From Chryseobacterium taklimakanense (GTDB lineage: Bacteria > Bacteroidota > Bacteroidia > Flavobacteriales > Weeksellaceae), in contig NZ_LT906465.1 in NCBI RefSeq assembly GCF_900187185.1, forward strand, positions 2,666,001-2,730,000: a stretch of DNA of 64,000 nucleotides, in the 5' to 3' direction. Below are positions 14,226 to 33,420 of the stretch, in pieces (the stretch's first letter is position 1; each line of letters opens with the position of its first letter). The notes under the pieces were generated by a model. The model did not search any database. It was not told the origin of the DNA and saw only the letters and a list, made by a program, of their open reading frames with translations. The position numbers were made by a program, and so were the translations under genes.

Positions 14226-14227
14226 CT

Positions 14228-14968
14228 ATGGGCACATCAAAATCCTTTTCAGATGTGAAACACTCTATGATTCCCAATTGGGGTAATTTGAGTTCATCAC
14301 TCACTACAAATTGTAATTCATCCGAACTTACAACACCAAAACTTAAATCCATTATGGGGAATTTTGTATCAGCATTAAGTGGTGCTAATACCGGAGGTCG
14401 TGGGGGTTCAAGAGCTGGCGCGAGAAGTAGTATTAGAACTGCAAAAAAAATTGGTGGCGTTTTATCTCAATTTATAAGTTCGGGAAATAATATTAGAGAA
14501 ACTTTAGCTTATACGGGTCTTACAGATATTAATAATAGGTCTGTTGGTGATGTTATTAACCATTTGATTGAATATTGCTCAGATAGTGCAGCATCAATAG
14601 ATGATAACGCAGCGAAAGAAGCGACAAGACAATTGCTAGAAGAATTAATCGGACAGGCTGAGTCGGTTGACGAAGTAGAAACCCTATTAGAACAAACTTT
14701 TTCTTCAAATAGTTTAGAAGATATAATAGTAAAATATTTTGCTTATTACATTAATGAGCTTCTTTCAAAATGGTTTTACGAAAATCTAATAAAAAGTAAG
14801 GGTGAAAATGATTGCAATAATCTTTTCGGTCAGATTAAAAACTTCATTTTCGAAAGAGTTAATGATATCCACCGAAGAAACCCACTACAGAATGTGGATT
14901 GGAGTTCTGATGAAGCTGATAGGCTTGTAAAAAATATTCAACAAGATGTTTTAACTGTTTTCGAATAA
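14228..14968 (+). CDS. qatB: QatB
   Basis: 246 residues, no enzyme motif. The N-terminus is polar and Ser-rich, starting MGTSKSFSDVKHSMIPNWGN, with a Gly/Arg-rich segment (TGGRGGSRAGARS) near residues 56-70; the C-terminal half is helical. This is the form of QatB, the system-specific second component whose biochemical role is not settled. It lies 2 bases after qatA and 2 bases before qatC. The assignment relies on context as well as on the N-terminal SxxW/Gly-rich pattern. Confidence 0.8.
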   Translation: MGTSKSFSDVKHSMIPNWGNLSSSLTTNCNSSELTTPKLKSIMGNFVSALSGANTGGRGGSRAGARSSIRTAKKIGGVLSQFISSGNNIRETLAYTGLTDINNRSVGDVINHLIEYCSDSAASIDDNAAKEATRQLLEELIGQAESVDEVETLLEQTFSSNSLEDIIVKYFAYYINELLSKWFYENLIKSKGENDCNNLFGQIKNFIFERVNDIHRRNPLQNVDWSSDEADRLVKNIQQDVLTVFE

Positions 14969-14970
14969 TT

Positions 14971-16326
14971 ATGAGAGTAGATATATTTTTTAATGATGCG
15001 GATTATGGTAAATTTTCGGATATGCATCTTAGTTTTGTTGAAAATGGAAGAGAAAGAAGAGTGCCACTCTCTTTTTTAAGATATGAAAATGTTTATGACT
15101 TTTCAAATGATTTAAGTTCTGTTAAGTTTGATTTTTTCCTAATAGCAGCTATAGTATACGGAGTTGATAATCTTTTAAATAGGGCAGTGCACTCTAATGA
15201 TGGATGGTCAAGAGATATAGAAGTTGAATTTCCTGTAATTAATTTACATGTTTGGATAGGAAAGGAAGAAAAACTAAAGAAAATACTTGATTTTTTGACG
15301 GGCGACAATTGGATGGTGTCCTTCTGTGAGAATAATCATGATAATTTTTATTATCCTAGACCTCTTTCTAGAAGAAGAAAGTTACCGAGAGATTATGATA
15401 AAGATTCAATCATTTCAACAAGTTTATTTTCGGGTGGTCTTGATTCATTTATAGGAGTTATAGACAAATTGGAATCAATTCGGAATAATGAAAAGTTGCT
15501 TTTGGTTTCACATTTTGATTCAAAATCACCTGGTCCAAATGGTGACCAACATAGACTATTATCACATTTATCATCTCAATACCCAAATAAAATTGAATGG
15601 ATACAATCAAAATTGGCACTTTCACGTAAGGATATTGAAGGAAATAAAGTTGTTGTAGAAAATAACTATCGAAGTAGATCTTTATTTTTTATTGGCTTGG
15701 GCATTTACTTAAGCCCTGTTAACGAACTTATTATTCCGGAAAATGGAACAATTTCCATCAATTATCCATTAACTCCTTCTCGCGTAAGTTCTTTAAGTAC
15801 TAGGTCAACACATCCATTTGTTTTAATGAAATTACAGGAGTTGTTTAACGATATAGGCTTGTCGGTTCACTTAATAAATTCTTATTCATTTAAGACAAAA
15901 GGCGAAATGTTCACCGAATGTTTAAACCCACAATTTTTACAAAGAACTTTTCCGGATTCAGTATCTTGTGGTAAAAGAGGAAGAAAACAGCATTGGTCAA
16001 TTAGAAATGGCACAGAGCAATGTGGTAGGTGTATGCCTTGTATTTATAGGCGAGCGGCACTGAACGCATCTGGTTTCGACAATGAAATCTTTGGTAATGA
16101 TGTTACGACGGTACTTTCTCTTAATCACGATTTGCCGGCATTATTTTCATATCTAAAAAGAGATATTACATTAGAAAAAATGAAAAGAGACTTAGTTGTG
16201 AGTGGTAATATAGAGGTGTCGGTTTTGGAGAATTATGCAGCAATGGTATTACGATCTAAGCAGGAAGTGATAAATTTGTTTCGAGATAAAGGTAACAATT
16301 TTGTAAAATCTCAATTAGGCATTTAA
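14971..16326 (+). CDS. qatC: QatC, QueC-like ATP-pyrophosphatase family protein
   Basis: 451 residues. A PP-loop SGGLDSF at 154-160 binds ATP in the manner of QueC (7-cyano-7-deazaguanine synthase). A zinc site is visible as C333, C351, C354, C357 (QCGRCMPC), matching the four-cysteine QueC pattern. The N-terminal ~145 residues precede the PP-loop and are not part of canonical QueC. In Qat systems QatC may modify DNA, protein or a small molecule; the substrate is not known from the sequence. The stop overlaps the qatD start (TAATG). Confidence 0.88.
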   Translation: MRVDIFFNDADYGKFSDMHLSFVENGRERRVPLSFLRYENVYDFSNDLSSVKFDFFLIAAIVYGVDNLLNRAVHSNDGWSRDIEVEFPVINLHVWIGKEEKLKKILDFLTGDNWMVSFCENNHDNFYYPRPLSRRRKLPRDYDKDSIISTSLFSGGLDSFIGVIDKLESIRNNEKLLLVSHFDSKSPGPNGDQHRLLSHLSSQYPNKIEWIQSKLALSRKDIEGNKVVVENNYRSRSLFFIGLGIYLSPVNELIIPENGTISINYPLTPSRVSSLSTRSTHPFVLMKLQELFNDIGLSVHLINSYSFKTKGEMFTECLNPQFLQRTFPDSVSCGKRGRKQHWSIRNGTEQCGRCMPCIYRRAALNASGFDNEIFGNDVTTVLSLNHDLPALFSYLKRDITLEKMKRDLVVSGNIEVSVLENYAAMVLRSKQEVINLFRDKGNNFVKSQLGI

Positions 16327-17057
16327 TGAATATTGACGCTCATTGTCATATAGATTTATATCAGAATCCAAGAAAGATTTTGATTGAAGCTAATAATTCT
16401 AATTTAGCTGTTTTATCAATGACAAATTTACCGAGTCATTTTGAGCTTGGTTACTCGTATTTTAAGACGCTTAAAAAAGTAAGATTAGCTCTTGGTATGC
16501 ACCCTTTAATGGCGGAATTTCACAAAAAAGAATTTCCTTTATTTATGAGAAATTTACATAAGACTTCATACATTGGAGAAGTAGGGTTAGATTTTTCAAT
16601 GGAAGGCATTAATACTAAGGATATTCAAATTGAAACATTCACAAAAATATTATCTAATATTATTGGTCAGAGAAAAATATTGAGCATACATTCAAGAAAG
16701 GCTGAAAGGGAAGTTTTAAATTTACTTAAAGAGTATAAAATTAGAAATGCTATTTTTCATTGGTATTCTGGAAGCATAAAATTGATTGATGAAATTGCAG
16801 AATGTGGTTTTTTCTTTTCTGTTAACTCAGCTATGATAAAATCTCAAAATGGGAGAAAAATTTTACAAAAAATTCCTAAGAATTTTCTTTTGACTGAAAC
16901 AGATGGACCTTTTGTGCAGGAGAATAATACACCTTTAAAACCAGGACAAGTTGAAAGTGTTATTACATTTTTATCTGAATTATGGTCAGTATCTGAAAGT
17001 GATGTAAAAGAAACATTGAATTCAAATTTTAAAAATCTTCTTAAATCCATTAAATAA
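16326..17057 (+). CDS. qatD: QatD, TatD-like metal-dependent nuclease
   Basis: 243 residues with the TatD metal ligands: HCH at 6-8 (NIDAHCHID), GMHP at 57-60, GEVGLD at 84-89, SIHSRKAE, FHWYSGS and TETDGPF. The family are metal-dependent DNases of the amidohydrolase fold. As the last Qat gene it is the likely effector or processing nuclease. It overlaps qatC by one base; a gap of about 410 bases follows. All usual metal-binding residues appear present. Confidence 0.9.
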   Translation: MNIDAHCHIDLYQNPRKILIEANNSNLAVLSMTNLPSHFELGYSYFKTLKKVRLALGMHPLMAEFHKKEFPLFMRNLHKTSYIGEVGLDFSMEGINTKDIQIETFTKILSNIIGQRKILSIHSRKAEREVLNLLKEYKIRNAIFHWYSGSIKLIDEIAECGFFFSVNSAMIKSQNGRKILQKIPKNFLLTETDGPFVQENNTPLKPGQVESVITFLSELWSVSESDVKETLNSNFKNLLKSIK

Positions 17058-17468: not shown

Positions 17469-19133
17469 GTGTCCAACGAACCGGGATACTACAAAACGAA
17501 ACCAATTTTTATGGCAAAATTAAGCATTGCAGGATATATAGTATTTACTTATGAATATAGCCCTTACAAAGACATTTATTGGAATGAAATAAGTCAAAAG
17601 ATCATTAAAAAATATGGGGATAATATCATTGATGATTTAGAAAAAGTAGATGAATGTCTTAATGAATGCTTTTTATATTTCATTAAAAAATTCGAAGAAA
17701 TAGTTTCCAATATTAGCAACTTCAAATTCTACTGTTATGTTTTTAGATTGCACGAAGATTCTTTAAAATTAATGCTTAAGGAAAGAAGCGGTGAATTAGA
17801 CCTTTTTGAATCAATTGAGGAGTCTCATTTCGCTATATACAGAAGGATTTTAAAAATAGTACTTGAACAAGGCTGTAATGTAGATATGCAATGGGGAACT
17901 CTTAATGATACTTCTGCAGATACGTTTAGTGAAAATGTTCAAAGATTATTTTATATTGGGATGCAACTTTATATGTTTGCTGACAAGATAGCCTATCATA
18001 GAATGCTTAACGGTGCATATTTTATTAACTTCGAAGAAAATGACATTGTTATTAACTGGCAAAATAATTATGGTACTGTTGAACATCATTTAATGTCTTA
18101 TTTTTCAAAAGGATATGAGACTGGTGTGGTTGATGAAACGGGCGTTACCGAATTGAGACAAAAGATTGAAGAATGCTATGGAGTACATTATGATAAAACA
18201 TTTGGAATTCCTTTCTTCATAAAAAAGCATTTTTCGGGAAATCCTTGTCAAACTATTGAACCTTATGTACTACCAATAAATTTAAAGTCAGAATTTAGTG
18301 ATTTATCTAATGAGGATGCAGAAAATATTTACAAAGGATTGTCTATATCAAAAGAAAATTGTTTGTCTTTAATTGATACAATATTGAAGCCCTACTCTAC
18401 TGAACGCTTTCTTTACAGACCTTTTTTAATTTATAATATAAACAATGAGCAACGACTATTAACTTCAGAAGATAAATTTTCTGAATCAGTTTATGTTTTA
18501 GCAACAAACGCAGTTCAATGGAATACATTAAATGCTGAATGGAGACAAAAAAAATGCTTTCAAAAGTATATTAATAAAAAAAGTAATGAACATGATAAAT
18601 TATTAGAAGACCGAATTGAACAATACTTTAAAACTAATAGAATCTTATTTGCTCGGAATATAAAGAGTTTTAAAACAGCAACAAATAATAATATTAATAT
18701 TGATAATGCTACTTGTGGCGAAATAGATTTTATCTTCATTGATGGTATTCGAAAAGAAATTGTTGTTGCAGATTCTAAATATAATAAAGCGAGGTATGAA
18801 GCTGTAGGCTACAGACAGGATTTTACAAATTTTGAAAAAAAATATGAACCTCAATTGCAAAAAAAGATAGATTGGGTTGCTAATAATATACCGATTGTTA
18901 ATCAACACTTTGTTAAAATTTCCAACAATCAAAATCTTGATTTTACTTCTTACAATGTAAATGGAATGTTCATAATAAATACTCCAACTTTTTATATGTT
19001 TTGTAGCAAATATTTAACTATTGATATTGAACATTTTGAGCTTCACCTTAAGGGAAGAAATGTTTATCCCGATTTAACATTACCATTTGAAGTTGGGACA
19101 CAAAAAATATATACATATCCATATTTTAAATAG
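17469..19133 (+). CDS. Orphan protein with PD-(D/E)XK nuclease-like C-terminus
   Basis: 554 residues from a GTG at 17469; an ATG at 17511 (MAKLSIAGYIVFTYEYSPYK) is a good alternative. The N-terminal 380 residues match nothing I recognise. Near the C-terminus, CGEIDFIFIDGIRKEIVVAD followed by SK gives the pattern E418/D420...D435-x-K437, with a strand-turn-strand layout, as in the PD-(D/E)XK nuclease fold. The helix after it (QDFTNFEKKYEPQLQKKIDW) is amphipathic. No partner gene is adjacent: Qat ends 410 bases upstream and a gene fragment follows. Probably a standalone restriction or abortive-infection protein; the function is inferred from fold motifs and island context only. Confidence 0.55.
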   Translation: MSNEPGYYKTKPIFMAKLSIAGYIVFTYEYSPYKDIYWNEISQKIIKKYGDNIIDDLEKVDECLNECFLYFIKKFEEIVSNISNFKFYCYVFRLHEDSLKLMLKERSGELDLFESIEESHFAIYRRILKIVLEQGCNVDMQWGTLNDTSADTFSENVQRLFYIGMQLYMFADKIAYHRMLNGAYFINFEENDIVINWQNNYGTVEHHLMSYFSKGYETGVVDETGVTELRQKIEECYGVHYDKTFGIPFFIKKHFSGNPCQTIEPYVLPINLKSEFSDLSNEDAENIYKGLSISKENCLSLIDTILKPYSTERFLYRPFLIYNINNEQRLLTSEDKFSESVYVLATNAVQWNTLNAEWRQKKCFQKYINKKSNEHDKLLEDRIEQYFKTNRILFARNIKSFKTATNNNINIDNATCGEIDFIFIDGIRKEIVVADSKYNKARYEAVGYRQDFTNFEKKYEPQLQKKIDWVANNIPIVNQHFVKISNNQNLDFTSYNVNGMFIINTPTFYMFCSKYLTIDIEHFELHLKGRNVYPDLTLPFEVGTQKIYTYPYFK

Positions 19134-19162: not shown

Positions 19163-19474
19163 ATAACCAACATACCAAAGTTCATACTTCCATTCAAAAT
19201 AATCGGTATTGAATTATTTGAAGGAGATGTGAAAGTGATTGGGTCAAGAAATGATTTTTTGCATGGTCGTATTACTGATTACAAAAATTTAGGAGAAAAC
19301 AGGGGAATCAGTCAAAAAGATAGAGATATGTATTATGCATCTGTTCGATTTTATACATTAATCAATTTGTTAATTTTGAAATACATAGGTTATGATAGTT
19401 ACGTACTTAATTTTTCAAAAATATTTGAGAACGATACTACATATTTAGTAAAAGAAGATTTTTACAGAAAATGA
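19163..19474 (+). pseudogene. HEPN-like gene remnant (C-terminal part)
   Basis: The frame is open from 19163 with no good start; a GTG at 19229 gives 81 residues. The conceptual product contains GSRNDFLHGRITDYKNLGEN, an R-x4-H motif typical of HEPN ribonucleases (for example ApeA-like proteins), then a helical end (YASVRFYTLINLLILKYIGY) of the type found at the C-terminus of such proteins. The expected N-terminal several hundred residues are missing, so I read this as a truncated gene left after a deletion. Confidence 0.5.
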
Positions 19475-19593: not shown

Positions 19594-20319
19594 ATGTTAA
19601 GAAATTTGGAACAACATATTGAACATTATTTTAAGGGAAGCGATAAACTTTCCAAGGATAGGCTTGTATTTTCTATAAAGAAGGACTTTCCAAGTTGGTC
19701 TGAAAATACCATCAATATGTATCTCTCCAAACTTAAAAAAGACGGAGTTTTAAATAATCCCTCAAGAGGAATCTATGAGATAGAGAACAAAGAACAGTTT
19801 TATCCTAAAATCTCAAGTAATCTTAAAAGAATTTACAATAAAGTAAATCGAGAATTCCCCTATATTTCGTTTTGTGTTTGGGACACGATATGGTTCAATG
19901 ACTTTATGATTCATCAGCCTTTTAAGAACTATGTTGTTTTAGAGGTTGAAAAAGATGCTTGTGAATCAGTGTTTTCATTTTTGTCGCAAACAATGAAAAA
20001 TGTCTTTTTCAATCCTGATGAAGAAATTTTTGAGCGCTACATTCACAATGTTGATGAGGTTGTAATTGTGAAGAATCTGATTTCGGAATCACCATTAATT
20101 GAAAGAGATAAAATAACTATTCCTACACTTGAAAAGTTATTGGTAGATATGTTGATTGATGCTTCGCTTTTTTCGGCTCAACAAAATGAAAAAGAAATAA
20201 TCATTAAGAATGTAAAACAAAGATTTACATTAAATGAACTGAAGATGAATAGATATGCTTCAAGAAGAAACAGGGAAAAGGAAATTTATGAATTAATAAA
20301 TATAAGTTTGGCAAAATAA
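19594..20319 (+). CDS. abiEi: AbiEi-like antitoxin, type IV toxin-antitoxin (DUF6577-like)
   Basis: 241 residues. The N-terminus (about 1-70) is a winged-helix domain: SKDRLVFSIKKDFPSWSENT, then INMYLSKLKKDGVLNNPSRG and IYEI, as in AbiEi antitoxins that bind their own promoter. The C-terminal part (PYISFCVWDTIWFNDFMIHQ onwards) is the domain that opposes the nucleotidyltransferase toxin. The toxin gene starts 26 bases after the stop. Autoregulation is expected: TTTTGCCAA motifs occur in the promoter and in an inverted repeat over the stop codon. Confidence 0.8.
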   Translation: MLRNLEQHIEHYFKGSDKLSKDRLVFSIKKDFPSWSENTINMYLSKLKKDGVLNNPSRGIYEIENKEQFYPKISSNLKRIYNKVNREFPYISFCVWDTIWFNDFMIHQPFKNYVVLEVEKDACESVFSFLSQTMKNVFFNPDEEIFERYIHNVDEVVIVKNLISESPLIERDKITIPTLEKLLVDMLIDASLFSAQQNEKEIIIKNVKQRFTLNELKMNRYASRRNREKEIYELINISLAK

Positions 20320-20333
20320 ACATATTTTGCCAA
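20308..20333. promoter_or_regulatory. Inverted repeat TTGGCAAAAT/ATTTTGCCAA
   Basis: A perfect 10-bp inverted repeat with a 6-base spacer over the abiEi stop codon and the intergenic gap before the toxin. One arm (ATTTTGCCAA) also occurs at the abiEi promoter (19554-19563). It is either an operator or an attenuating hairpin that lowers toxin expression relative to the antitoxin. Confidence 0.6.
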
Positions 20334-20345
20334 TTTTAAACAATT

Positions 20346-21383
20346 ATGATAGATGCAAAATCTTACACTGAAGAATGGATAACTAACTTACGAAATAGTT
20401 TTGGCAAACGTGTTGACCCGAAACTTATAGAAAAAGTAATATATGCATTGACACTCTTGGAGCAATTGAGATTGAACAATCTAGAATTTGTCTTCAAAGG
20501 AGGAACAGCACTACTTTTAGCGACGGAAAATCCGAGACGCTTTTCAATAGACATCGACATTATTACCGAAGAATCTGAAGACAAAATCAAAACGGTTTTA
20601 GAAAAAATAAGTCAATTAGAGATGTTTATCAGATGGGAGGACGATAATGATAGAAAACACACCCAAGATGCACCTATTGGACATTTCAAAATATTTTACA
20701 AAAGCAGTGTAGATGGTCACGAAGAACCTATTTTGTTGGATTTATTATATTCAACCAATCCTTATCCTGAAACAAAACTTTATCCGATAAAACATAAGTG
20801 GCTATTAACTGATGGAGAAGCAACTGATGTCGTCTTACCAACATTTGAAGCCATTTTAGGAGATAAGTTAACAGCATTTGCTCCAAAAACAACAGGAATA
20901 TTGTATTCTAAAAATCGTCCTGTAGAAATTATTAAACAATTGTATGACATTGCGTTTCTATTCGACCAAATAACTGATTTGGATGTTGTAAGAAAAAGTT
21001 ATTCTAGAGTTGTAGGGGAAGAAATAAGATATAGGAATTTGAAAATTGACGCTGATGTGGTTTTGAATGATACTTGGCAAACATGCTATATCTTGTCGGA
21101 AAGAGATGAGAAGTCTGATGAATTCAAACATTTGCAGTTAGGTATCAAGAATTTCACAAATTTTATCATCGACCGTTTTTCAATTGAAGAGGCGATTGTT
21201 GCATCTTCAAAAGTGGCTTATCTCACAACTTTAATAAAAAAGGGTGGAAATAAAGAAATAGAGCGCTTTAATAATCCAACTGAAATCAAAGATTGGCTGA
21301 TTGAACATCCCACCTACAATAAACTGAACAAGTTAAAAAAGAGTAATCCCGAGGCATTTTTTTATTGGTACAAATGTGTATAG
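20346..21383 (+). CDS. abiEii: AbiEii-type nucleotidyltransferase toxin
   Basis: 345 residues. The nucleotidyltransferase signature is present: FKGGTALLL at about 50-58 and RFSIDIDIITEE with the acidic pair D69/D71, followed by HFKIFY and the conserved region DKLTAFAPKTTGI near residues 176-188 and KQLYDIAFLFDQ. AbiEii toxins add nucleotides to RNA targets (shown for tRNA acceptor stems in some homologues) and cause growth arrest on phage infection. It pairs with the antitoxin upstream. All core acidic residues seem intact. Confidence 0.88.
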   Translation: MIDAKSYTEEWITNLRNSFGKRVDPKLIEKVIYALTLLEQLRLNNLEFVFKGGTALLLATENPRRFSIDIDIITEESEDKIKTVLEKISQLEMFIRWEDDNDRKHTQDAPIGHFKIFYKSSVDGHEEPILLDLLYSTNPYPETKLYPIKHKWLLTDGEATDVVLPTFEAILGDKLTAFAPKTTGILYSKNRPVEIIKQLYDIAFLFDQITDLDVVRKSYSRVVGEEIRYRNLKIDADVVLNDTWQTCYILSERDEKSDEFKHLQLGIKNFTNFIIDRFSIEEAIVASSKVAYLTTLIKKGGNKEIERFNNPTEIKDWLIEHPTYNKLNKLKKSNPEAFFYWYKCV

Positions 21384-21593: not shown

Positions 21594-23555
21594 ATGACAA
21601 TTTTTATTATTTTATTTTTGATAATTCTTATCGTTGTTCTAAGTAAGAAAAAGAATCCAAGCAAAAAAGTATACTTTAAGAACTCAAATTCTTTAATTCA
21701 ACCATCTGCAGTTAATAGTATATCTGCAAAAAGCCGTTCTAAAGCAATAGAAGACATGTCTTTTCATAACACAAATTCATCTAAAATAAATGATGATAGC
21801 GTTATTGATGTTTCTGAACTTGTAAGCACATTGATTGGAAATATCAAAGTTACTTCTGATTACACCTCTTCTTATTCCTCAATTCCGTATTGGGCACATC
21901 AATATATTTACTCATACAACGAAATAAATTATGCAACTCAAGCGCAAAAGGCATTTTACGAAAAATTTAGAAATGAATTCTTAAAAGAAAACTTCATCTA
22001 TCTAAATGGCAATAATAACTATGCCTTTATTTTACTTTTTGATTTACTGAATGAATTCGAAAATCACAAAGATTACCACAAAATTGAAAAACAATTAGAA
22101 GATTTAGGAAATAACTATCCTAGAACAAAATCATATTGCGTGTCGTTTTTGCTCAAAAAACTTGAAGAATACAATATGGATAATGAAGCTGATTTATTCA
22201 GGGAGAAAAACTACCAATACGATTACGACTATTGGAAATTGGGAAGACGATACAAAAAGAAGCTTAATCTTACCAATGAACAAGAGCAAATTCTTAACAG
22301 AATATGGCTTCAAAATAATGTGTTCAATGAAATTGAGTTCTGCAAAATTGAAATACTAAAAGGATTTTTGAGAGCTTACGAATTTTTACAGCGTAATTAT
22401 GTTTCGACTGACAATTCATTTGAAAATTTAATGGACGAACTGTCGGATTTTATTGTTAGAAAATATTATCATTATAGAAAAGGTAGTCAAAATTATAAAT
22501 ACACTTTCGATTCTGTAAAAGGAGAAATCTACGGTCACATTTTGAAATTGACAGAAAATAATGTTAGAGAAGAATTTTCCAATAAACGAAAATTAACTGC
22601 GGAATTGAATTACAGAACTCCTGAGATTTTAAATCTATATGATGAAAAAATCATTTCAAAATTAGCTGACTTTTTTGTTGAAGACAAGAAGAACATAATA
22701 CCACCGGATTTGGACACAGAAAAACTACTAAATGAAAGTAATACCACTCGTTGGAAGTCCAAGTTTGAAAAAATTTTAAAAGATTTTTCATCTGCGGATG
22801 GATTCGAAAATCAAATCATCAACTTGGCGGAGCAGAATGTCAAAAATCCTTCAGTAGAAAATATTTTTTACGAAGCATCAAAATCTGTGGCAAAAATTGA
22901 CAAAGTTTGTTCTCTCCGGCTTTACCTTCGCTATATTGATGCTGACTTAAAATCAACGCAGTTTGACAATAAGCAGATGAATAAAACAATTCAAAAAAGT
23001 TTATTTAATACAGCTGAACAATTTGACGATTTTGAAAAAATATTGAATAAATTCATTGTTGAAAAGAATCTTGAAGAGGCATTAAAGTGTATAAATGAGT
23101 TTTATATCCCAAAGAGACGAAAAATATCCATTGATAAAAAAACAATTCAAGATGTCCAGAAACAACACTCGGGAACGGTAAGTCTCCTTAATGAATATTT
23201 GCAAGAAGAGATGGAAGAAGATGTGCAAAATGAAGAATGGGGAAAAGAAGAGGATGTTGTTCAAATTAATATAATTAACGATAATGAAGATTTAGTTTCT
23301 TCTAAATTTTTAAATGAATTAAATCTTTCTGAACTTCAAAAAGAAGTTTTGGAAATCTTTGAAAAAAGCAGTTTCAGTATTCCCCAAACCGAACTTGAAG
23401 ATTTCCTAAAAGCAAAAAACCAAATGATGAATTCGGTAGTAGATTCTATTAACGAACACTGTTTTGATACATTTGATGATGTACTTATTGAAGAAGACGA
23501 TGAGTATTTTACTATAAACGAAAATTATTACAAAAAACTATTAAAGAATGATTGA
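21594..23555 (+). CDS. sngA: Shango component SngA, TerB-domain membrane protein
   Basis: 653 residues: one N-terminal membrane helix (residues 2-17) followed by a basic stretch, a Ser/Asn-rich linker to about 75, then a TerB_N-type region (SIPYWAHQYIYSYNEINYAT onwards), a long helical middle and an acidic C-terminal TerB_C-like region (SELQKEVLEIFEKSSFSIPQ). Shango is a three-gene anti-phage system of a TerB-like protein, an ATPase and a helicase, the order found here. It overlaps the ATPase gene by 8 bases. Confidence 0.82.
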   Translation: MTIFIILFLIILIVVLSKKKNPSKKVYFKNSNSLIQPSAVNSISAKSRSKAIEDMSFHNTNSSKINDDSVIDVSELVSTLIGNIKVTSDYTSSYSSIPYWAHQYIYSYNEINYATQAQKAFYEKFRNEFLKENFIYLNGNNNYAFILLFDLLNEFENHKDYHKIEKQLEDLGNNYPRTKSYCVSFLLKKLEEYNMDNEADLFREKNYQYDYDYWKLGRRYKKKLNLTNEQEQILNRIWLQNNVFNEIEFCKIEILKGFLRAYEFLQRNYVSTDNSFENLMDELSDFIVRKYYHYRKGSQNYKYTFDSVKGEIYGHILKLTENNVREEFSNKRKLTAELNYRTPEILNLYDEKIISKLADFFVEDKKNIIPPDLDTEKLLNESNTTRWKSKFEKILKDFSSADGFENQIINLAEQNVKNPSVENIFYEASKSVAKIDKVCSLRLYLRYIDADLKSTQFDNKQMNKTIQKSLFNTAEQFDDFEKILNKFIVEKNLEEALKCINEFYIPKRRKISIDKKTIQDVQKQHSGTVSLLNEYLQEEMEEDVQNEEWGKEEDVVQINIINDNEDLVSSKFLNELNLSELQKEVLEIFEKSSFSIPQTELEDFLKAKNQMMNSVVDSINEHCFDTFDDVLIEEDDEYFTINENYYKKLLKND

Positions 23556-24864
23556 TAACATTAAACCAAAAGAAGCTACCTCAATAGTAAATTCACTTGT
23601 AAGCGGTGTAGTCCCCAAAATTGGTGTTCAGCATATAACGGTTGGAAGAACCGATGAAATAGAAGCATTCATCTCAGCACTCAACGATGTTAAAAACGGG
23701 CATAGTTTAGCCAAGTTTTGGATTGGTGATTTTGGGAGTGGGAAGTCTTTTATGCTTCATTTGCTCAATACTGTTGCACTGAAACAGAAATTTGTGGTGG
23801 CAAACGCAGATTTTACACCGGACAATCGACTTTATTCAAACGATGGAAAGAGTGTTTTGCTCTATTCATCAATTATGGACAATATTGCGATTCAAACCAA
23901 GCCTGAAGGTGGAGCTTTGCAAACGCTGTTGGAAAAATGGATTGAGCAAGTAATTACAAAAACAGCACAGGAAAATGAAATCTCTTTGGTTGATATTCGA
24001 AATGAGGAATACCTTGGCTTGATTCAAAATTCTATAATCAAGACTATTAATGAAATTACGGAAGTAGGAGGTTTTGATTTCGGTTCCGTCATTGTCAAAT
24101 ATTATGAGGGTTATATAAAAGGAGATGAACTTTTGCGTAGAAATGCGTTAAAATGGTTGAAGGGAGAATACAAAACAAAAACTGAAGCAAGGCAAGATTT
24201 AGGGGTTCGTGAAATTATCAACGACCAAAACTTTTATGATATGCTGAAAAATTTCTGCAAATTGTTTGTCAGCATGGGTTACAGTGGTTTTATGATTAAT
24301 TTGGATGAAGCAATCAACCTCTATAAAATTTCAACTTCTGTGATGAGGGAGAAGAATTACGAAAAAATTCTCAGCATCTATAATGACTGTTTTCAGGGTA
24401 AAGTATCAAACTTATTCATCAATTTTGCAGGTACGAGGGAGTTTTTGGAGAATGAAAGACGCGGTCTATTTAGTTACCAAGCTTTAAAATCTCGATTACA
24501 AACTAATAAATTTGAAACATTGGAGATGAGGGATTTTGCACAGCCAGTGATCAAACTCACTCCGTTAAACCATAATGAAATTTTTGTTCTACTAAAGAAG
24601 TTAAAGTTAATATTTGATTTTAATTATAAGACTGATATCAATATTTCTGATGAAGAAATTTCAGCCTTTATGGAGGAAATGTTTAATAAACCAGGAGCTT
24701 CTGAATTTCTTACACCAAGAGAAGTGATTCGTGATTTTTTAAACATTTTAAATATCATTCGCCAAAATCCAGAAGTGGACAAGAACCAATTGTTTGGAGA
24801 TATAGAAATTGAGGATGAAAGACCAAACGATTTGAATATCTTGGATAGCATCGAAGAATTATGA
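23548..24864 (+). CDS. sngB: Shango component SngB, DUF2791/BrxC-D-type ATPase
   Basis: 438 residues. Walker A is GDFGSGKS at 60-67 within AKFWIGDFGSGKSFML; Walker B/NLDEA at 251-255 (GFMINLDEAINLYK). The N-terminal IVNSLVSGVVPKIGVQHITV is characteristic of the BREX/DUF2791 ATP-binding family. In Shango this ATPase partners with the TerB protein and helicase. It overlaps sngA by 8 bases and sngC by 4, so the three are coupled. BREX is ruled out because no BrxC, PglX or PglZ gene is near. Confidence 0.85.
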   Translation: MIDNIKPKEATSIVNSLVSGVVPKIGVQHITVGRTDEIEAFISALNDVKNGHSLAKFWIGDFGSGKSFMLHLLNTVALKQKFVVANADFTPDNRLYSNDGKSVLLYSSIMDNIAIQTKPEGGALQTLLEKWIEQVITKTAQENEISLVDIRNEEYLGLIQNSIIKTINEITEVGGFDFGSVIVKYYEGYIKGDELLRRNALKWLKGEYKTKTEARQDLGVREIINDQNFYDMLKNFCKLFVSMGYSGFMINLDEAINLYKISTSVMREKNYEKILSIYNDCFQGKVSNLFINFAGTREFLENERRGLFSYQALKSRLQTNKFETLEMRDFAQPVIKLTPLNHNEIFVLLKKLKLIFDFNYKTDINISDEEISAFMEEMFNKPGASEFLTPREVIRDFLNILNIIRQNPEVDKNQLFGDIEIEDERPNDLNILDSIEEL

Positions 24865-26996
24865 TAGCCTTCAATCTACTTTCCGAGCCGATTCGAAAAT
24901 ATATTAGAGATAAAGGATGGGAAAGTCTTAGACCAATTCAGGAAGCTGCAATCCAACGAATATTAAGCACAGAAAATAATTATGTGTTGATTTCAAGGAC
25001 TGCGTCAGGCAAAACAGAAGCCGCATTTCTGCCTATATTGTCAAGGGCAAATTTCAAAAAAGAAGGAGTTAGGATTCTTTATATTTCTCCATTAATTGCA
25101 TTGATAAATGACCAATTTCGCAGAGTGGAAGAATTGTGCGAATATTTGGACATACCTGTAACAAAATGGCATGGTGAAGCAAGCAGAGGTCAAAAAGAAA
25201 AACTACTCAAAAATCCAAGTGGAATTGTATTGATTACTCCTGAGTCTTTGGAAGCAATGTTTGTAAACAAGCCATACAATGTAAAGCATTTGTTTGAATC
25301 ATTAGAATTTGTTGTCATCGATGAAATTCATTCATTTTTAGGTTCTGACAGGGGAATCCAATTGCAATCAATATTGTCGCGACTACAAAAAATAAATAAA
25401 ACAAAGTTCAAAACCTTAGCGCTTTCTGCCACTGTTAGTGATTCTAATCAATATGTTGAGTTAAAAAATTTTATTGGCGATGTTGAGAATACAAAAATTA
25501 TTAGGGATATCACGCCAAAACCTATCAATGCTGTTTTTAGATATTTTGAAGGTACAGGTGCTGAATTACCTCTCGATTTGTTGAAGGATTTATACGTTCA
25601 GACAAGAAATAATAAATCACTTATTTTTCCTAATGCTAGAGGAAGGGTAGAAGAGGTCGCTGTAAAATTGAGAAAGATTTCAGATAAAGTTGGTGGACAT
25701 CAAAATTATTTTTCGCATCATTCTTCTGTTGATAAAGAGGTGAGAGAATATGTAGAGTTTTTTGCGAAAAATAATACCTATCAGAATTTTAGCATTGCTT
25801 GTACGTCAACTTTAGAGTTGGGAATTGATATTGGAAGTGTCGATCAGGTTGTACAGATTGATGCAACTCATAGTATTGCTTCATTAATCCAACGAGTAGG
25901 ACGAAGTGGAAGAAGGGATGATAAAGCGAGTAATTTATTTTTGTATGCAACCAATCGATGGACATTGCTACAATCTGTTGCTTGTTGGTTATTATATGAG
26001 GAAAAATATATCGAGCCTGTAATTTTGAAAGAAAAGGCATATGATATTTTGGTTCATCAGATACTTTCTACGGTAAAGGGCACTTCGGGTATATTAAAAA
26101 AGAATCTAATTTCTGTTTTACAAGAAAATAACGCCTTTAAAAATATTTCAAAAACCGATATTGAAGAGATCATTGATTTTTTAGTAGCAAAAGACCTTTT
26201 AGAAAAACTTGAATTTGAATTAATTTTAGGAATTGAGGGAGAAAAGATTGTCAACAATCGGGAGTTTTATAGTGTTTTTCAAACCGAAGATTTATTTAAA
26301 GTTTCGCATAAAGGAAATAAAATCGGCGAAATACCACTTACGATTCAGGTTCGCGAAGATGAAAATATTTATTTATCTGCCCGAATTTGGAAAATTGCTC
26401 ATGTTGATTTGAAATCAAAAAAAATTGAAGTTATTCCGGCAAATGATGGAAAGAAACCTATTTTTGAAGGAAACGGTGCTAATATAGCTGAAAGAATAAG
26501 GCAAAAAATGTTAGAAATTTTGGTTTCAAAAAAAGAGTATGATTTTCTTGACGAGCCAAGTCAGAATATCATAACTGAAATGCAAAAAGAATTTTCGATT
26601 TTTGATATCAATGATTTATATAGTCAAAGACCGCTTCATTCCACTAATAGTAATCTTACTTTCTTTTCTTTTACGAGTTCAAAAATTAATAAAACTTTAA
26701 AAATAGTTTTCGATGCAGTAGGAATTGAAAACTTTTATACTGAGCTCGAAAGCGCATTTGAAATCAAAATAAATAAGGATGAATTTGCACAAAAATTAAA
26801 AAAATTATCATCTTTTGATGTTAACATTGATTTGGTGCTAGCAAATGTTTTAGATGCAAACCCCAACATTTTAGATTTTTCAAAATATGGTAAATTCTTG
26901 CCTGTAAAATTCCAATTGGAAATATTGAAAAACTCATATTATGATTTACTTGGTTGTGAAAGATTTTTAAGAAGTTTAAAGATTGTAAATAATTAG
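24861..26996 (+). CDS. sngC: Shango component SngC, DEAD/DEAH-box helicase
   Basis: 711 residues, superfamily 2. Motif I TASGKT at 47-52, motif II DEIH at 154-157, motif III LSAT near 188-191, motif V CTSTLELGIDIGSVDQ and motif VI QRVGRSGR at 344-351. The helicase core is followed by a winged-helix and helical C-terminal region (about 380-700), resembling Lhr/BrxHI-like helicases. It starts inside the last codons of sngB (ATGA overlap) and ends the operon. A 150-base gap follows. Confidence 0.87.
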   Translation: MIAFNLLSEPIRKYIRDKGWESLRPIQEAAIQRILSTENNYVLISRTASGKTEAAFLPILSRANFKKEGVRILYISPLIALINDQFRRVEELCEYLDIPVTKWHGEASRGQKEKLLKNPSGIVLITPESLEAMFVNKPYNVKHLFESLEFVVIDEIHSFLGSDRGIQLQSILSRLQKINKTKFKTLALSATVSDSNQYVELKNFIGDVENTKIIRDITPKPINAVFRYFEGTGAELPLDLLKDLYVQTRNNKSLIFPNARGRVEEVAVKLRKISDKVGGHQNYFSHHSSVDKEVREYVEFFAKNNTYQNFSIACTSTLELGIDIGSVDQVVQIDATHSIASLIQRVGRSGRRDDKASNLFLYATNRWTLLQSVACWLLYEEKYIEPVILKEKAYDILVHQILSTVKGTSGILKKNLISVLQENNAFKNISKTDIEEIIDFLVAKDLLEKLEFELILGIEGEKIVNNREFYSVFQTEDLFKVSHKGNKIGEIPLTIQVREDENIYLSARIWKIAHVDLKSKKIEVIPANDGKKPIFEGNGANIAERIRQKMLEILVSKKEYDFLDEPSQNIITEMQKEFSIFDINDLYSQRPLHSTNSNLTFFSFTSSKINKTLKIVFDAVGIENFYTELESAFEIKINKDEFAQKLKKLSSFDVNIDLVLANVLDANPNILDFSKYGKFLPVKFQLEILKNSYYDLLGCERFLRSLKIVNN

Positions 26997-27144: not shown

Positions 27145-30100
27145 ATGATCGAAATATTAAATAATTATTGTAATAAGGAGAGCGGACTTTTGCTCTTCAA
27201 TCCTCCTACAGGCTCAGGCAAAACGCACCATGTGTTAAGTTGGATTTTTAAAAATTATAAAGAATTCTGCAAAGACAACAAGAAAATTTTCTTTGTGACC
27301 AATTTGAAAAAAAATCTTCCCGATCAAAAGCTAAAGGATGAATTCTTCGCGCCAAATAAACAATTGGAGGATTTTGATAAATATGTAACTTTTTTAGATT
27401 CAAACGCAGATTGTCTAGTTAAAAGATTTGAACAAGTAGAACATTCAGTTAATGAGTATTTTAAAAATTTAAAAATATTCTACGCAATCAAAAATAGTGT
27501 TTCGGAAATTAAAAGACATCAATCAAATCCTTCATTACGTACAATTGTTGCAAAATTAAATGAAGAATTGCGCAATGATCTTGAACCTAAATTTAGAAGG
27601 TCAATAGAAAAATATTTAAAGGAAAATTATTCTAATCGGCAAGAGCGAATCAGGGCAATTCAAACCAATAGAGATTTAATGTGGATTGGAGAGTTGTACC
27701 CTGCTGTCTTTTCTTCTAAAAAGAAAATTTTCTTTTTAAGTATTGACAAATTCTATCATAAAAATAGTACACTTGTTGAACCTTCTTATTCATTTTTAGA
27801 AAATGAACTAACTAAAAATGCTATTATTTTTATTGATGAATTTGATGCGACGAAAGAAAATATCCTAAATAATATTATTGAAAAGGGTAAGAAGCAAAGG
27901 ATTGATTTCATGCACCTTTTCACAGAAATATATTGGGCACTATCCAAAAATGTTTTCCCTAAAAAATTCACAATTCATTCTGAAAAACGTATAGAGCAAA
28001 TTAAGAACAAGTATGGTCTTACATTAGAAAATATCCAAAGTATCTTACTTGAAAAAGCCGAGGAAATTGTCGAAAAATATAGTTTGGATTTTAGTTTTAA
28101 GACTATGGATGTTAATGAAGAAAATTCAAATCAAAGAAATTTACTATTTCACGATTTCCAATACCATTCAGTTTATAGGAATGATAAAAAATATATAAAA
28201 TTAAATCCTAATAAGTATGAAAAAATAAATGAAATTACATTTGAGAGCGACAAACCTCAAACAGGTGAGAATATTGTATCACTACTAAATCAAATTAAAG
28301 GATTTGTTAATTACTTTAGTGGTATTATTAAAAGTATTGCCGAGAATTATCAACAATTAGAGGAACAAGAAAGAAGTAATAATCCCAAAAGAAATGAGTT
28401 TACTTTCGATTTAGCACTTAGTACTGTTATTGAAGAGTTTGGGTTGGAAAGTAGGCATAAAAACTATATTATCGACAATATTTTAAGCGCTAGGGAAAAA
28501 ACTCGCAGAAGATTAGACGGTGCCTATGAATTAAATTATGATTTGAGTTTTTATGAGAATGGATTTAGATACTATGATTTTGTAGATGATGATTCGCATC
28601 AGTCCAAGACAAAAACATTCATTTATAATTTTCAAAATACACCTGAAAAATTTATTTTAAAATTAGCAGAAAAAGCGAAAGTGGTTGGTATTTCGGCTAC
28701 TGCTCTTATTGAGACTGTTACGGGCAATTATGATATTCAATATTTCAAAAGACAACTTGGAGAGAAATTTTTCGAATTAACTGAAAACGAAAAGTTCCAT
28801 TTGAAAAATTTATTTGACAACCAAAATAAGCATTACAATAATGTACATATTATTCCCGAATGGGTAAATTTCTTGAGTGGAGGAGAATCAAAAGAAAAAG
28901 CAATTCAGGAATTTGAAAAATTATTTGAAAATAAGGAATTGGCAGAAAGTATTGTGGGAGAACTAATTGCTACAAATCCAAATTCAACAGATTATCATTT
29001 CAATAGATACTTAAAAATAGGTTATTGTTTCAAACAATTTATATCAAAAGAGGATATTTTGGGCTTCTTATGTTTGCTTAACAAGGAACCTAAAAAGAAT
29101 GATAAAGACCTTAATTTGAGAATACTTGAACTTATCTTCGAATATCTAATTGAAGAAACAACGAAAACGCAATCCTTTTTTATTTCGGATGATAACACTT
29201 TTAAAGTTATCGAATCTTATACTATAATTAACAGTAGCGACTTTGACAATAAAAAGCAGTCATTCATCAAGCGGTTGGAAAAAGGCAAAAAAGTATTTAT
29301 TATTTCGATGTATCAAACTATGGGAGCGGGACAAAATTTACAATTTATTTCGCCTAATCCTGAAAATTTGGTTAATGTTCAGGATGAATCGTCCTTTAAT
29401 TGGAATTTTCAAAATGAAACTGACATTAATGCGATATATCTAGATAAACCTACACACATAATCCAACAGATCAATATTAACCTAAATGAAGAAGGATTCA
29501 TCAAATACCTTTTTCAGCTAGAGTTTTTAGCTCAAGCAGGATTAATTTCTGTAAAGCAATTAAACTATCAGGTTACGATTGCATTTAAAAATTTATTAGC
29601 ATCTTTTAGCACCTCGAAAAAACCTGAGAGTCCTAATAACAGCTTTTTATACAAAGATTATAATATCAAACAGCATTTTGTAAAATTCATCATTCAAGCT
29701 ATAGGAAGAATTTGCAGGACAAATTTAAAATCTCCTAATATCTACATTTTTGCAGATAGTGAATTAGACAGTCTGATTTCTGATTATGATGTTGACAACA
29801 ATTTAGTTTTAAATGAGTTTAAAGCTCTTGTCAAATCAGGAAGGCAAAAAATTCAAGATGAAAATAACAAAGATTTGAAATTAAAAAACATTGCAACTGC
29901 AACTAATAAAAAAGTATATAGTAAAATTCGGAAGTTTATATCTAGCGATTGGAAATGGAACGAAAATAGAAAAGTGGAGTGGGAGCATTTAAGAGAAATG
30001 TGCTTGCGATTTCCAACCATTTCCGTAGATGAAATAAGCAAATTTAAACTTAATAGAATTCTAGACTTATATATAGAATTGCCAAGCGAAAACAATAAAT

Positions 30101-30687
30101 ATTTCTTCCAATTAAATGAGAGAGATGAAGTTAATGATTATCACAATGTTGAAATTGATTTTGATAAGAATATTGGAAGGGAAGTTTCTGTTGGAACAAG
30201 TCGTTTGGTCGAACTTTTACAAATAGATGGAGTGAAATCATATTTTAAATCAAAGAATTGGGCGACAGACTTTGCCTTAAACAAATATATGCTTTCTCCC
30301 ATTTTATTCAACAATATTTACAAAGGTGCTTTAGGAGAGCAAGTGGGAAGATTTATCTTCGAAAAACACTTTGAAGTAGAACTAGAAGAATTGGATTTAG
30401 AAAATTATGAACTTTTTGACTTTAAAGTAAAAAACACCAATACTTATATTGACTTTAAGCATTGGAAAGAAAATACAGAAATTAGTTTCGACGAACAAGA
30501 AAATAAAATCCGAGAAAAATTAAAAAAAGTTAAGGGAGAAAGAGTATTTATTATTAATATTTTATCTTCGGAAGACCGAAGTCCTATAAAATCTTCTGAT
30601 GGCAAAATCGTAGAAATTCCTTGTCTTTGGAATATGAGTAGACAGGAATTGGATACTAACTTTCTAAAAGAATTTAAAAGGGTATGA
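27145..30687 (+). CDS. Large helicase with C-terminal nuclease-like domain, unnamed system
   Basis: 1180 residues, no family name I can give with confidence. Superfamily 2 helicase motifs: PPTGSGKT (motif I, about 20-27), IIFIDEFDA (motif II, DEFD 231-234), VVGISATAL (motif III) and IIQAIGRICR (motif VI, about 848-857). Long insertions separate motif I from II and the two RecA halves. At the C-terminus, GALGEQVGRFIFEKHF and then FDFKVKNTNTYIDFKHWKEN give D1092 and D1103-x-K1105, a PD-(D/E)XK nuclease pattern. So one protein may unwind and cut nucleic acid. Its stop overlaps the ATG of the next gene (ATGA). It is separate from Shango by a 148-base gap. Confidence 0.7.
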   Translation: MIEILNNYCNKESGLLLFNPPTGSGKTHHVLSWIFKNYKEFCKDNKKIFFVTNLKKNLPDQKLKDEFFAPNKQLEDFDKYVTFLDSNADCLVKRFEQVEHSVNEYFKNLKIFYAIKNSVSEIKRHQSNPSLRTIVAKLNEELRNDLEPKFRRSIEKYLKENYSNRQERIRAIQTNRDLMWIGELYPAVFSSKKKIFFLSIDKFYHKNSTLVEPSYSFLENELTKNAIIFIDEFDATKENILNNIIEKGKKQRIDFMHLFTEIYWALSKNVFPKKFTIHSEKRIEQIKNKYGLTLENIQSILLEKAEEIVEKYSLDFSFKTMDVNEENSNQRNLLFHDFQYHSVYRNDKKYIKLNPNKYEKINEITFESDKPQTGENIVSLLNQIKGFVNYFSGIIKSIAENYQQLEEQERSNNPKRNEFTFDLALSTVIEEFGLESRHKNYIIDNILSAREKTRRRLDGAYELNYDLSFYENGFRYYDFVDDDSHQSKTKTFIYNFQNTPEKFILKLAEKAKVVGISATALIETVTGNYDIQYFKRQLGEKFFELTENEKFHLKNLFDNQNKHYNNVHIIPEWVNFLSGGESKEKAIQEFEKLFENKELAESIVGELIATNPNSTDYHFNRYLKIGYCFKQFISKEDILGFLCLLNKEPKKNDKDLNLRILELIFEYLIEETTKTQSFFISDDNTFKVIESYTIINSSDFDNKKQSFIKRLEKGKKVFIISMYQTMGAGQNLQFISPNPENLVNVQDESSFNWNFQNETDINAIYLDKPTHIIQQININLNEEGFIKYLFQLEFLAQAGLISVKQLNYQVTIAFKNLLASFSTSKKPESPNNSFLYKDYNIKQHFVKFIIQAIGRICRTNLKSPNIYIFADSELDSLISDYDVDNNLVLNEFKALVKSGRQKIQDENNKDLKLKNIATATNKKVYSKIRKFISSDWKWNENRKVEWEHLREMCLRFPTISVDEISKFKLNRILDLYIELPSENNKYFFQLNERDEVNDYHNVEIDFDKNIGREVSVGTSRLVELLQIDGVKSYFKSKNWATDFALNKYMLSPILFNNIYKGALGEQVGRFIFEKHFEVELEELDLENYELFDFKVKNTNTYIDFKHWKENTEISFDEQENKIREKLKKVKGERVFIINILSSEDRSPIKSSDGKIVEIPCLWNMSRQELDTNFLKEFKRV

Positions 30688-32675
30688 AAATTTGCAAAAT
30701 TAATCGACTTAAGATAAATTTAACTTTAGATAATATTTTTCGAGATTTTATCATTGTAAAGTTTTCCACTTCAGAAAATTACATTAAGTACGGAGCTTTA
30801 ATCTTGGATGAATTAAGCTATGCATTAGAGGCAAAAAGCATTGTTTTCGAAGGAGGGAAATCTTTTTATGCTTTGTTTGAAAAAGAAAAGATTGAAAAGA
30901 TTGATTTATCAAAATCTTTAGAAAAGTTAGAAAGTGGAGAAACACTATTTTATAAGTTATTAAATACAACTGAAATAAGTGAAATAGCTAACCATACTAT
31001 TGCACAACTACTCATAAACTCACTTTCAAACCCCAAGAATAATAAACTCTCTTTTAATAATCTAACAGGAAAATTATATCTTTTTTCACCTAACTTCTTC
31101 AAAATATCAAAGACGAAGGATAGGGAACAGGTTTTTAAAATAGTTGCTTTAGAATTGAATATTGCTTCTGATTTATCATTTCAACTTAATGTAAAGACAT
31201 TTTCAAGCGTACTCCTGAGTAAACACATGGATTTTTCTAAGAAAAAATTCAGCGAATTTCCAAAATATACTTTTGTACATTCCACAGGGACATTAAGGAG
31301 AGTTTTAGCTTCTGACAATAATATTCAAGGAGAAAACCAATTTATTCAAAAACAAACAACTAGGAACGGAGTTTTGGAGAAAAATCTCATTCCATTTTTA
31401 TCGTTCAAAAATTTACAGGAATTTAATGACAGTAAAATAGGATTATTAAATTTAATCATTCAACGCATTGAAGAAAAATTGTTTGATTATTTGTCAATTG
31501 AATTAACTGAACTTCCTGTCGAAAAAACGATTCGCTATAATTCATCGTTTAATATTGCTGGGTTTGACAAAAATATTTATTTGCTTGATTTGATTAAAGA
31601 CGAGGATTCAGGGGATTACATTAATCAAGTTAAAAGTTCGCTAAAAAGGTTACTGCCAAAAGCGAATGTTAAGATTGTGAAAAAGGAAAATAAGAATGGT
31701 TACAATTTAAATTTAATTCACAATAAATCATACTATACTAGATATGGGAAAAAGGATCCTTATAAATCTAGTTTAATTAGCCAACATTTTACATTCGAAG
31801 ATTTCACAATTGATTCAAATGCAACACTCAAAGCATTGATTATAGAATCAATTATTAGAAATGATATTAAGAATAATCAAATCTCAATAACAAATTGGGA
31901 AAAATATGAATTTAAAGAAAAATGGATTTTCGGAGCCAGGTTAAATGAACAGTTTTGTTTTCTTACTATTCATCCAAATGGAAATTTGAAATTTGAGATT
32001 TTTGAACCGAATTTATTCAATCAAACCGAATTTGATATGCTTTGTAAAGCTTTTGAAGAAAATAACAATGTAGAATTTTTAGTAAAAGACGAGAAAGGTA
32101 ACATCAATTTAATAAACAAGACACCATTTTATACAATACCAAATTATGGTCTTTTATTCAAAAAACTTCATAATGAATCCATTCCCTTAAAATTATCAAG
32201 AATTGATGCAATAAAATATTTAAGTGAAATCGTCGAAAATGTTAAAAATGGGGATGAAATAATTGCTAGAATAAACAAGATTGAGCATTGGAGCAAAAAG
32301 TCACTTCTTGATTGTTTTGAAAATAGAACTGATAAAAAGAAATTCGCGGAAAAAATTAAAACTGAAACAGGAGAAATTTTGAAATCGTACTTTCGAGATA
32401 AAACGAGATACGAAATCTTAGATAGCCAATTGGATATTCATATACTTAGAGAAAATGAAAAGCTCTATTATTACGTAGGCATCAAAGGAGAGGGAATTCA
32501 GCAACAGATCTCCCGAGCATCAACGATCAGAGAAATAGAGTCATATGAAGGTTCAGAAATAATTTTTGATAGATTGACATCTTTGATGAACGTTGATTTT
32601 GTGAAAAATGGTGAGTTGACCGTTTTTCCATTTCCAATTAAATATTTGCGTGAGTGGGTAAAGCAAAATTTTTGA
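30684..32675 (+). CDS. Partner protein of the large helicase, unknown fold
   Basis: 663 residues, coupled to the helicase gene by a 4-base ATGA overlap. No signal peptide, membrane helix or zinc cluster. Visible landmarks: NNLTGKLYLFSPNFFKISK near 135-155, ALELNIASDLSFQLNVKTFS near 170-190, DLIKDEDSGDYINQVKSSLK near 300-320, RLNEQFCFLTIHPNGNLKFE near 420-440 and a C-terminal YYVGIKGEGIQQQISRASTI followed by FPFPIKYLREW. The N-, middle and C-terminal layout weakly recalls PIWI/Argonaute-like proteins such as the pPIWI-RE group, which also travel with a helicase and a nuclease, but I cannot see catalytic residues that prove it. It is the last gene before the element's right end. Confidence 0.6.
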   Translation: MKICKINRLKINLTLDNIFRDFIIVKFSTSENYIKYGALILDELSYALEAKSIVFEGGKSFYALFEKEKIEKIDLSKSLEKLESGETLFYKLLNTTEISEIANHTIAQLLINSLSNPKNNKLSFNNLTGKLYLFSPNFFKISKTKDREQVFKIVALELNIASDLSFQLNVKTFSSVLLSKHMDFSKKKFSEFPKYTFVHSTGTLRRVLASDNNIQGENQFIQKQTTRNGVLEKNLIPFLSFKNLQEFNDSKIGLLNLIIQRIEEKLFDYLSIELTELPVEKTIRYNSSFNIAGFDKNIYLLDLIKDEDSGDYINQVKSSLKRLLPKANVKIVKKENKNGYNLNLIHNKSYYTRYGKKDPYKSSLISQHFTFEDFTIDSNATLKALIIESIIRNDIKNNQISITNWEKYEFKEKWIFGARLNEQFCFLTIHPNGNLKFEIFEPNLFNQTEFDMLCKAFEENNNVEFLVKDEKGNINLINKTPFYTIPNYGLLFKKLHNESIPLKLSRIDAIKYLSEIVENVKNGDEIIARINKIEHWSKKSLLDCFENRTDKKKFAEKIKTETGEILKSYFRDKTRYEILDSQLDIHILRENEKLYYYVGIKGEGIQQQISRASTIREIESYEGSEIIFDRLTSLMNVDFVKNGELTVFPFPIKYLREWVKQNF

Positions 32676-32890
32676 ATTTGTTTCATAATAGTGAGCATCT
32701 AATCAAATTGTTAGTCATTTTTTTAAGTAAATACACTATACTTTGATTAATGAAATTCTTTATCATTTTTTTTAGAGTCAAATATTACTACCAAACCCGT
32801 CCAAAAAATAATCAACTTTATTTGCAAATAATCAAAAAAACAATATATTTGCACTATTGAAAAACGACGCTCTTAATAGCGTTTTGACAA

Positions 32891-32910
32891 TGACCTATTC
32901 AGTGACCTGT
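32891..32910 (+). repeat. Direct repeat copy 1, TGACCTATTCAGTGACCTGT
   Basis: First of three copies around the attachment site; this one lies inside the element, 54 bases before the attR core. Identical to the copy at 33193-33212. Placement on both sides of an att core suggests arm-type sites for a tyrosine integrase or its accessory proteins. Confidence 0.7.
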
Positions 32911-32964: not shown

Positions 32965-32982
32965 GAGTCCCGTCCGGATCGC
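32965..32982. other. attR: attR: duplicated 3' end of tRNA-Asp
   Basis: GAGTCCCGTCCGGATCGC is identical to 33071-33088, which covers the T-loop, 3' acceptor strand and discriminator base of tRNA-Asp plus one base. The base before each copy differs, so the identity is limited to 18 bp. This is the classic scar of site-specific insertion into a tRNA 3' end. It lies 31 bases before an intact tRNA-Asp, consistent with tandem tRNA-Asp genes of which the first was the target. Confidence 0.75.
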
Positions 32983-33013: not shown

Positions 33014-33087
33014 GATCCGGTAGTTCAGCTGGTTAGAATGCCGCCCTGTCACGGCGGAGGTCGCGGGTTCGAGTCCCGTCCGGATCG
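33014..33087 (+). tRNA. trnD: tRNA-Asp (GTC)
   Basis: Full cloverleaf: acceptor GATCCGG pairs with CCGGATC; D-arm GTTCAGCTGGTTAGAAT; anticodon stem CCGCC/GGCGG around CTGTCAC with anticodon GTC; T-arm GCGGG-TTCGAGT-CCCGT; discriminator G. CCA is not encoded. It marks the junction between the integrated element (left) and the chromosome (right). Confidence 0.96.
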
Positions 33088-33192
33088 CGATTACTTTACC
33101 AAAGTAGCACAAAATGCTGTAAAACATAGGTTTTACGGCATTTTTCGTTTTATGCTGATATCAAAGAGCAACAAATTCGCACATATTTTCAG

Positions 33193-33212
33193 TGACCTAT
33201 TCAGTGACCTGT
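33193..33212 (+). repeat. Direct repeat copy 2, with inverted half-copy
   Basis: Same 20 bases as 32891-32910, about 105 bases after the tRNA. An inverted half-site AATAGGTCACTG follows at about 33226-33236, so a hairpin is possible. A third, shorter copy TGACCTATTCAGTGACA begins at 33322. These lie outside the presumed right end of the element and may be the leftover arm of an earlier insertion at the same tRNA. Confidence 0.65.
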
Positions 33213-33321
33213 TTCAATTTCAAAAATAGGTCACTGGAAAAAATCTAAACGAGCGATTGAAAATTGATTTTGAAATGATTTTTTCAGACCAAATTTTGGA
33301 TTTTTTTTCGAGTGTGTGCAG

Positions 33322-33338
33322 TGACCTATTCAGTGACA
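33322..33338 (+). repeat. Direct repeat copy 3 (partial)
   Basis: TGACCTATTCAGTGACA, matching the first 16 bases of the two copies on either side of the tRNA. The remaining stretch up to the next gene at 33421 shows nothing else. Confidence 0.6.
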
Positions 33339-33420
33339 TCAATATTTTACTCTGCATTAATAATCAGTTATCAAAATTGAGCTAAATTTGAGGGCTAAAA
33401 AACTTTTCGATTCTACCATT

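Follow-up and report, generated by a model that had tools for sequence, protein, structure and literature searches.

A probable DdmDE plasmid-elimination operon as the terminal cargo of an ICE in tRNA-Asp of Chryseobacterium taklimakanense

Results

Both proteins of the gene pair match DdmDE

The terminal cargo of a 66.6-kb ICE inserted in tRNA-Asp of C. taklimakanense is very probably a DdmDE plasmid-elimination operon, a reading to which we assign a probability of about 94%. The window, that is, the whole stretch of 64,000 nucleotides that was analyzed, contains two overlapping + strand ORFs at 27145–30687 (1180 aa) and 30684–32675 (663 aa), with the junction ATGA. For this pair we observed that both proteins are homologous to those of DdmDE, that the helicase and nuclease residues are conserved, that the two genes overlap in an operon, that the pairing is conserved elsewhere and that the pair lies in the ICE. 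Judged from sequence, the pair is a Bacteroidota version of DdmDE and is a new example of a known system, not an undescribed one.

The earlier note on this DNA had described a 1180-residue and a 663-residue gene coupled by ATGA, and both ORFs were present as it described them. It had also proposed a defence module with a helicase-nuclease effector and a recognition subunit, which matches DdmD and DdmE. The system itself was regarded there as unnamed and undescribed, unless both proteins confidently matched a named system. Such a match was found: since both proteins match DdmDE, one named system that has been characterized experimentally and structurally, the 'undescribed' reading was wrong. 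Neither protein was named by Pfam, NCBIfam or PHROGs searches. DISARM and Druantia were rejected as candidates, as neither protein matched their PADLOC models at E ≤ 1.

The first gene, ddmD (27145–30687, + strand), encodes a predicted SF2 helicase with a C-terminal PD-(D/E)XK nuclease. The PADLOC DdmD model matched the 1180-residue protein with an E value of 3.9e-48. In phmmer searches against the PDB, the solved DdmD 9ix4 was matched across residues 11–1161 (E 2.2e-69), and the V. cholerae DdmD chains (9bf1, 2.2e-43; 9ezx, 8u0u and others) were matched at about 2e-43. The entries 9ix4, 9iw3 and 9ixm are presumably Lactobacillus casei DdmDE, which we take from the title of a Cell Res. 2024 paper. 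When the nuclease domain was used as the lone query, E values of 4.7e-20 for 9ix4 and 1.9e-09 for V. cholerae DdmD were obtained.

The DdmD of the window was then aligned with six homologues, with identity down to 23%. In the Walker A motif PPTGSGKT (residues 20–27; 27202–27225, + strand), T22, G23, G25, K26 and T27 were invariant, as was the whole Walker B or DEAH-type box DEFD (D231, E232, F233 and D234; 27835–27846, + strand). Further invariant helicase residues were S517–T519 in GISAT (515–519), and Q851–A852 and G854–R855 in QAIGRICR (851–858). The predicted catalytic residues of the nuclease, D1092...D1103-F-K1105 (30418–30459, + strand), were invariant in the same seven sequences at D1092, D1103 and K1105, and D1103-x-K1105 aligned with the D-x-K of the solved DdmD nuclease domains. 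Because this invariance holds across homologues of down to 23% identity, the DdmD motifs are not due to chance. Thus, the SF2 helicase motifs (PTGSGKT, DEFD, ISAT and QAIGRICR) and the C-terminal PD-(D/E)XK pattern proposed in the earlier note were both borne out at the same residues.

The second gene, ddmE (30684–32675, + strand), encodes the 663-residue protein, a putative long-Argonaute-like, DNA-guided targeting subunit. When this protein was searched alone against the PDB by phmmer, DdmE 9iw3 was matched with an E value of 4.6e-12, and V. cholerae DdmE with just 0.012; the best single-sequence stretch to 9iw3 was the C-terminal end of DdmE. A profile of four Bacteroidota DdmE homologues improved these values to 3.6e-17 and 7e-07, respectively. 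With a Nostoc homologue added (five sequences), 9iw3 was matched at 2.9e-26 over residues 229–657 and V. cholerae DdmE at 3.8e-12, and no chain other than DdmE was found in the PDB at E ≤ 1. An AlphaFold prediction of DdmE from four sequences gave a model too poor (mean pLDDT 46.5) to display a long-Argonaute fold with an inactive PIWI; such a fold is suggested by the profile matches to DdmE chains. Pfam hits to TBP-TOTE and PIN_5 were weak (E about 0.1) and were judged to be chance. By these profile matches, the partner of DdmD here is DdmE, a divergent member. DdmE belongs to the long prokaryotic Argonautes; it lacks catalytic activity and works with DNA guides (PMC12409362). Since the homology is to a long Argonaute, the guess of a recognition subunit, 'possibly PIWI-like', appears to have been correct.

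The pair is conserved but rare

A genomic neighbourhood search for the pair, as the earlier note had suggested, revealed ddmD and ddmE adjacent in five loci elsewhere. They were adjacent in a Saprospiraceae, a Polaribacter and a Bacteroidales genome, in which DdmD was 68–72% and DdmE 56–60% identical to the proteins of the window. The same arrangement was found in Nonlabens (DdmD 68% identical), where ddmD was intact and ddmE (L005:13482-15600) had two apparent frameshifts, possibly a sequencing error. The fifth locus was on plasmid pn2 of Nostoc sp. UHCC 0926, with identities of 38% for DdmD and 29% for DdmE. The two-gene pairing is therefore conserved beyond the window, at four Bacteroidota loci and at one plasmid locus of Nostoc.

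In samples of the phylum and of the class, about 395 genomes each, the genome studied here was the only one that scored for ddmDE, in a search whose first-look filter may miss divergent copies. ddmDE is rare among the sampled Bacteroidota genomes. No relatives of the pair were found in the phage records and viral contigs searched. Separately, the Persicobacter plasmid pPP11 (L013:6360-12364) was observed to encode, next to parAB, a DdmD/ApsA-like protein of divergent sequence and, after it, a partner of 761 aa. This 761-aa protein had no recognizable DdmE match and lacked the ApsB motif, and it is possibly a third type of partner.

The operon lies at the right end of an ICE

Exact copies of an 18-bp sequence, the 3' end of tRNA-Asp, were located at genome positions 2632351–2632368, 2698965–2698982 (window 32965–32982) and 2699071–2699088. 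The first of these forms the 3' end of an intact tRNA-Asp, with a tyrosine integrase 250 bp further on. The second copy is attR, the right end of the ICE (32965–32982, + strand), which lies 290 bp past ddmE. The placement of the pair at an 'ICE edge' in the earlier note was therefore confirmed. The segment between the first two copies is a 66.6-kb ICE, because T4SS, coupling-protein, relaxase and TraM-type genes lie between them. In the window, the backbone includes a TraG/VirB4-type conjugation ATPase (4219–7296, − strand; Pfam P-loop_TraG, 2.2e-129) and a MobA/VirD2-type relaxase (9130–10560, − strand; Pfam Relaxase, 3.8e-21). The ATPase has an unusual insertion, a DnaJ J-domain (residues 583–645, E 6.9e-17) between its ATPase segments.

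To the right of attR, the chromosome continues with the second member of the original tandem tRNA-Asp pair (33014–33088, + strand), which was detected by ARAGORN. Many relatives have the tandem tRNA-Asp pair uninterrupted, without insert, and the tRNA-Asp spacer of genome G827 is a near-identical match to what follows attR here; this is the empty site. The cargo is AT-rich, the GC content of ddmDE being 28.5% versus 41% in the chromosomal DNA on the right side. The ICE integrase was present in 58 of 148 genomes of the family, in which ddmDE was not common; ddmDE is therefore variable cargo.

Two further observations concern the ends of the element. Window positions 33089–33341, right of the second tRNA-Asp, resemble the left ICE end: they share with it the tRNA-proximal stretch and the CAGTGACCTATTCAGTGACCTGT repeats, which also occur at 32888–32910. 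This resemblance suggests that a second, related element left a remnant in the tandem tRNA. In the left part of the ICE (L010:9762-17352), ORFs of repeated length were found (290, 290, 290 and 289 aa; 389 and 389 aa), possibly duplicated cargo genes; one of them was searched against Pfam and had no match.

Neighbouring defence genes and alternative readings

The cargo is ordered as QatABCD, a 554-aa protein, AbiE, Shango SngABC and, as the last, DdmDE. On the + strand, PADLOC identified QatABCD at 12330–17057 (QatA 7.8e-116, QatB 5.2e-10, QatC 1.3e-87, QatD 2.1e-65), AbiEi/AbiEii at 19594–21383 (4.4e-90 and 2.1e-138) and the three Shango genes. The latter encode SngA with a TerB-C domain (21594–23555; E 5.1e-49; Pfam TerB_C 9.7e-24), the SngB ATPase of the BrxC/BrxD family (23548–24864; E 8.5e-167) and the SngC helicase (24861–26996; E 4.1e-210), which lies outside the pair. 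BREX was rejected, as the BREX-like genes nearby are Shango. The 554-aa protein (17469–19133) and an 81-aa ORF (19229–19474) in this defence island had no PADLOC or PHROGs match, and the 554-aa protein had no match in Pfam.

Shango, Qat and AbiE are anti-phage systems in PADLOC, and the two proteins of the pair might, like their neighbours, now have phages and not plasmids as their main target. However, the known DdmDE and ApsAB systems target plasmids, and ApsAB failed to protect against any of eight phages of E. coli (PMC11096173). We consider a mainly anti-phage role improbable.

The neighbourhood also bears on whether the pair belongs to ApsAB (helicase-nuclease plus ApsB), the related sister antiplasmid family of E. 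coli, instead of DdmDE. ApsAB is found in tRNA-inserted islands, some of which likewise contain Shango or AbiE, and ApsA and DdmD are parts of a single continuum of helicase-nucleases (PMC11096173). The partner decides the question, for it matches DdmE, which has no similarity to ApsB (PMC11096173). Moreover, the motif Y[X]3K[X]nQG[X]nK carried by ApsB (PMC11096173) was absent from the partner in the window and from four of the five compared partner proteins; the sole match, in the Bacteroidales partner, was chance-like and outside the presumed MID region. Given the DdmE match and the absence of the ApsB motif, the pair is therefore assigned to DdmDE, and membership of ApsAB is very unlikely.

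It is hardly credible that the upstream helicase and ATPase genes (21594–26996) belong with ddmDE to a larger composite system: sngC and ddmD are on the same strand and 148 bp apart, but these genes form a complete Shango SngABC operon in PADLOC, and this reading is largely refuted because none of the five other ddmDE loci has Shango-like genes directly upstream (ORF lengths, sequence starts or annotation).

Discussion

As a DdmDE system, the pair would likely eliminate plasmids by means of DNA guides, and competing mobile elements are possible targets. Antiplasmid activity is known from distant relatives only, and by analogy with them we infer the activity, guide use and targets of the pair as well as a part in protecting both the ICE and its host from rival plasmids. 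The mechanism of DdmDE comprises DdmE-guided binding, DdmD recruitment and plasmid degradation (review PMC12409362). If it works as in V. cholerae and Lactobacillus casei, DdmE would load short single-stranded DNA guides, pair with plasmid DNA and then recruit DdmD. DdmD would quit its autoinhibited dimer, load onto the displaced (non-target) strand and translocate, and its C-terminal nuclease would nick or degrade the plasmid. An ICE-borne DdmDE may in this way clear plasmids that enter the cell and either compete with the ICE or are a burden to its host.

With the present operon, an Argonaute system of the plasmid-destroying kind is located on an ICE of a Bacteroidota genome, and its sequences are far from those of the two structurally solved systems. 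Here, an antiplasmid system is borne by an element that itself moves by conjugation, and self versus non-self discrimination is therefore testable in a natural setting. A speculative extension, which we think rather unlikely, is that the Bacteroidota and cyanobacterial DdmDE lineage on conjugative elements and plasmids serves inter-element competition; it would then have to spare its own circular transferring form, by guide choice or by other means unlike V. cholerae.

Among known systems, the DdmDE of Lactobacillus casei (9ix4, 9iw3 and 9ixm) is alike in both proteins, DdmD over nearly its full length and DdmE by profile. The differences are the low identity, the host, which is a member of Bacteroidota and not of Bacillota, and the location on an ICE here. 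The DdmDE of V. cholerae VPI-2 is also homologous in both proteins and has in common with the present operon a genomic island with other defence systems (PMC12409362), but it is more distant (DdmD, E about 2e-43; DdmE, 3.8e-12 by profile). A helix-turn-helix/WYL gene, VC1772, is near the V. cholerae operon, whereas no counterpart lies directly beside the pair here. The ApsB-type partner and MID motif of E. coli ApsAB were not found in the pair. Nevertheless, ApsAB shares with it a helicase-nuclease, an Argonaute-like protein and tRNA-inserted islands with Shango and AbiE (PMC11096173), and to this antiplasmid, Shango and AbiE combination of E. coli islands one case outside Proteobacteria is now added.
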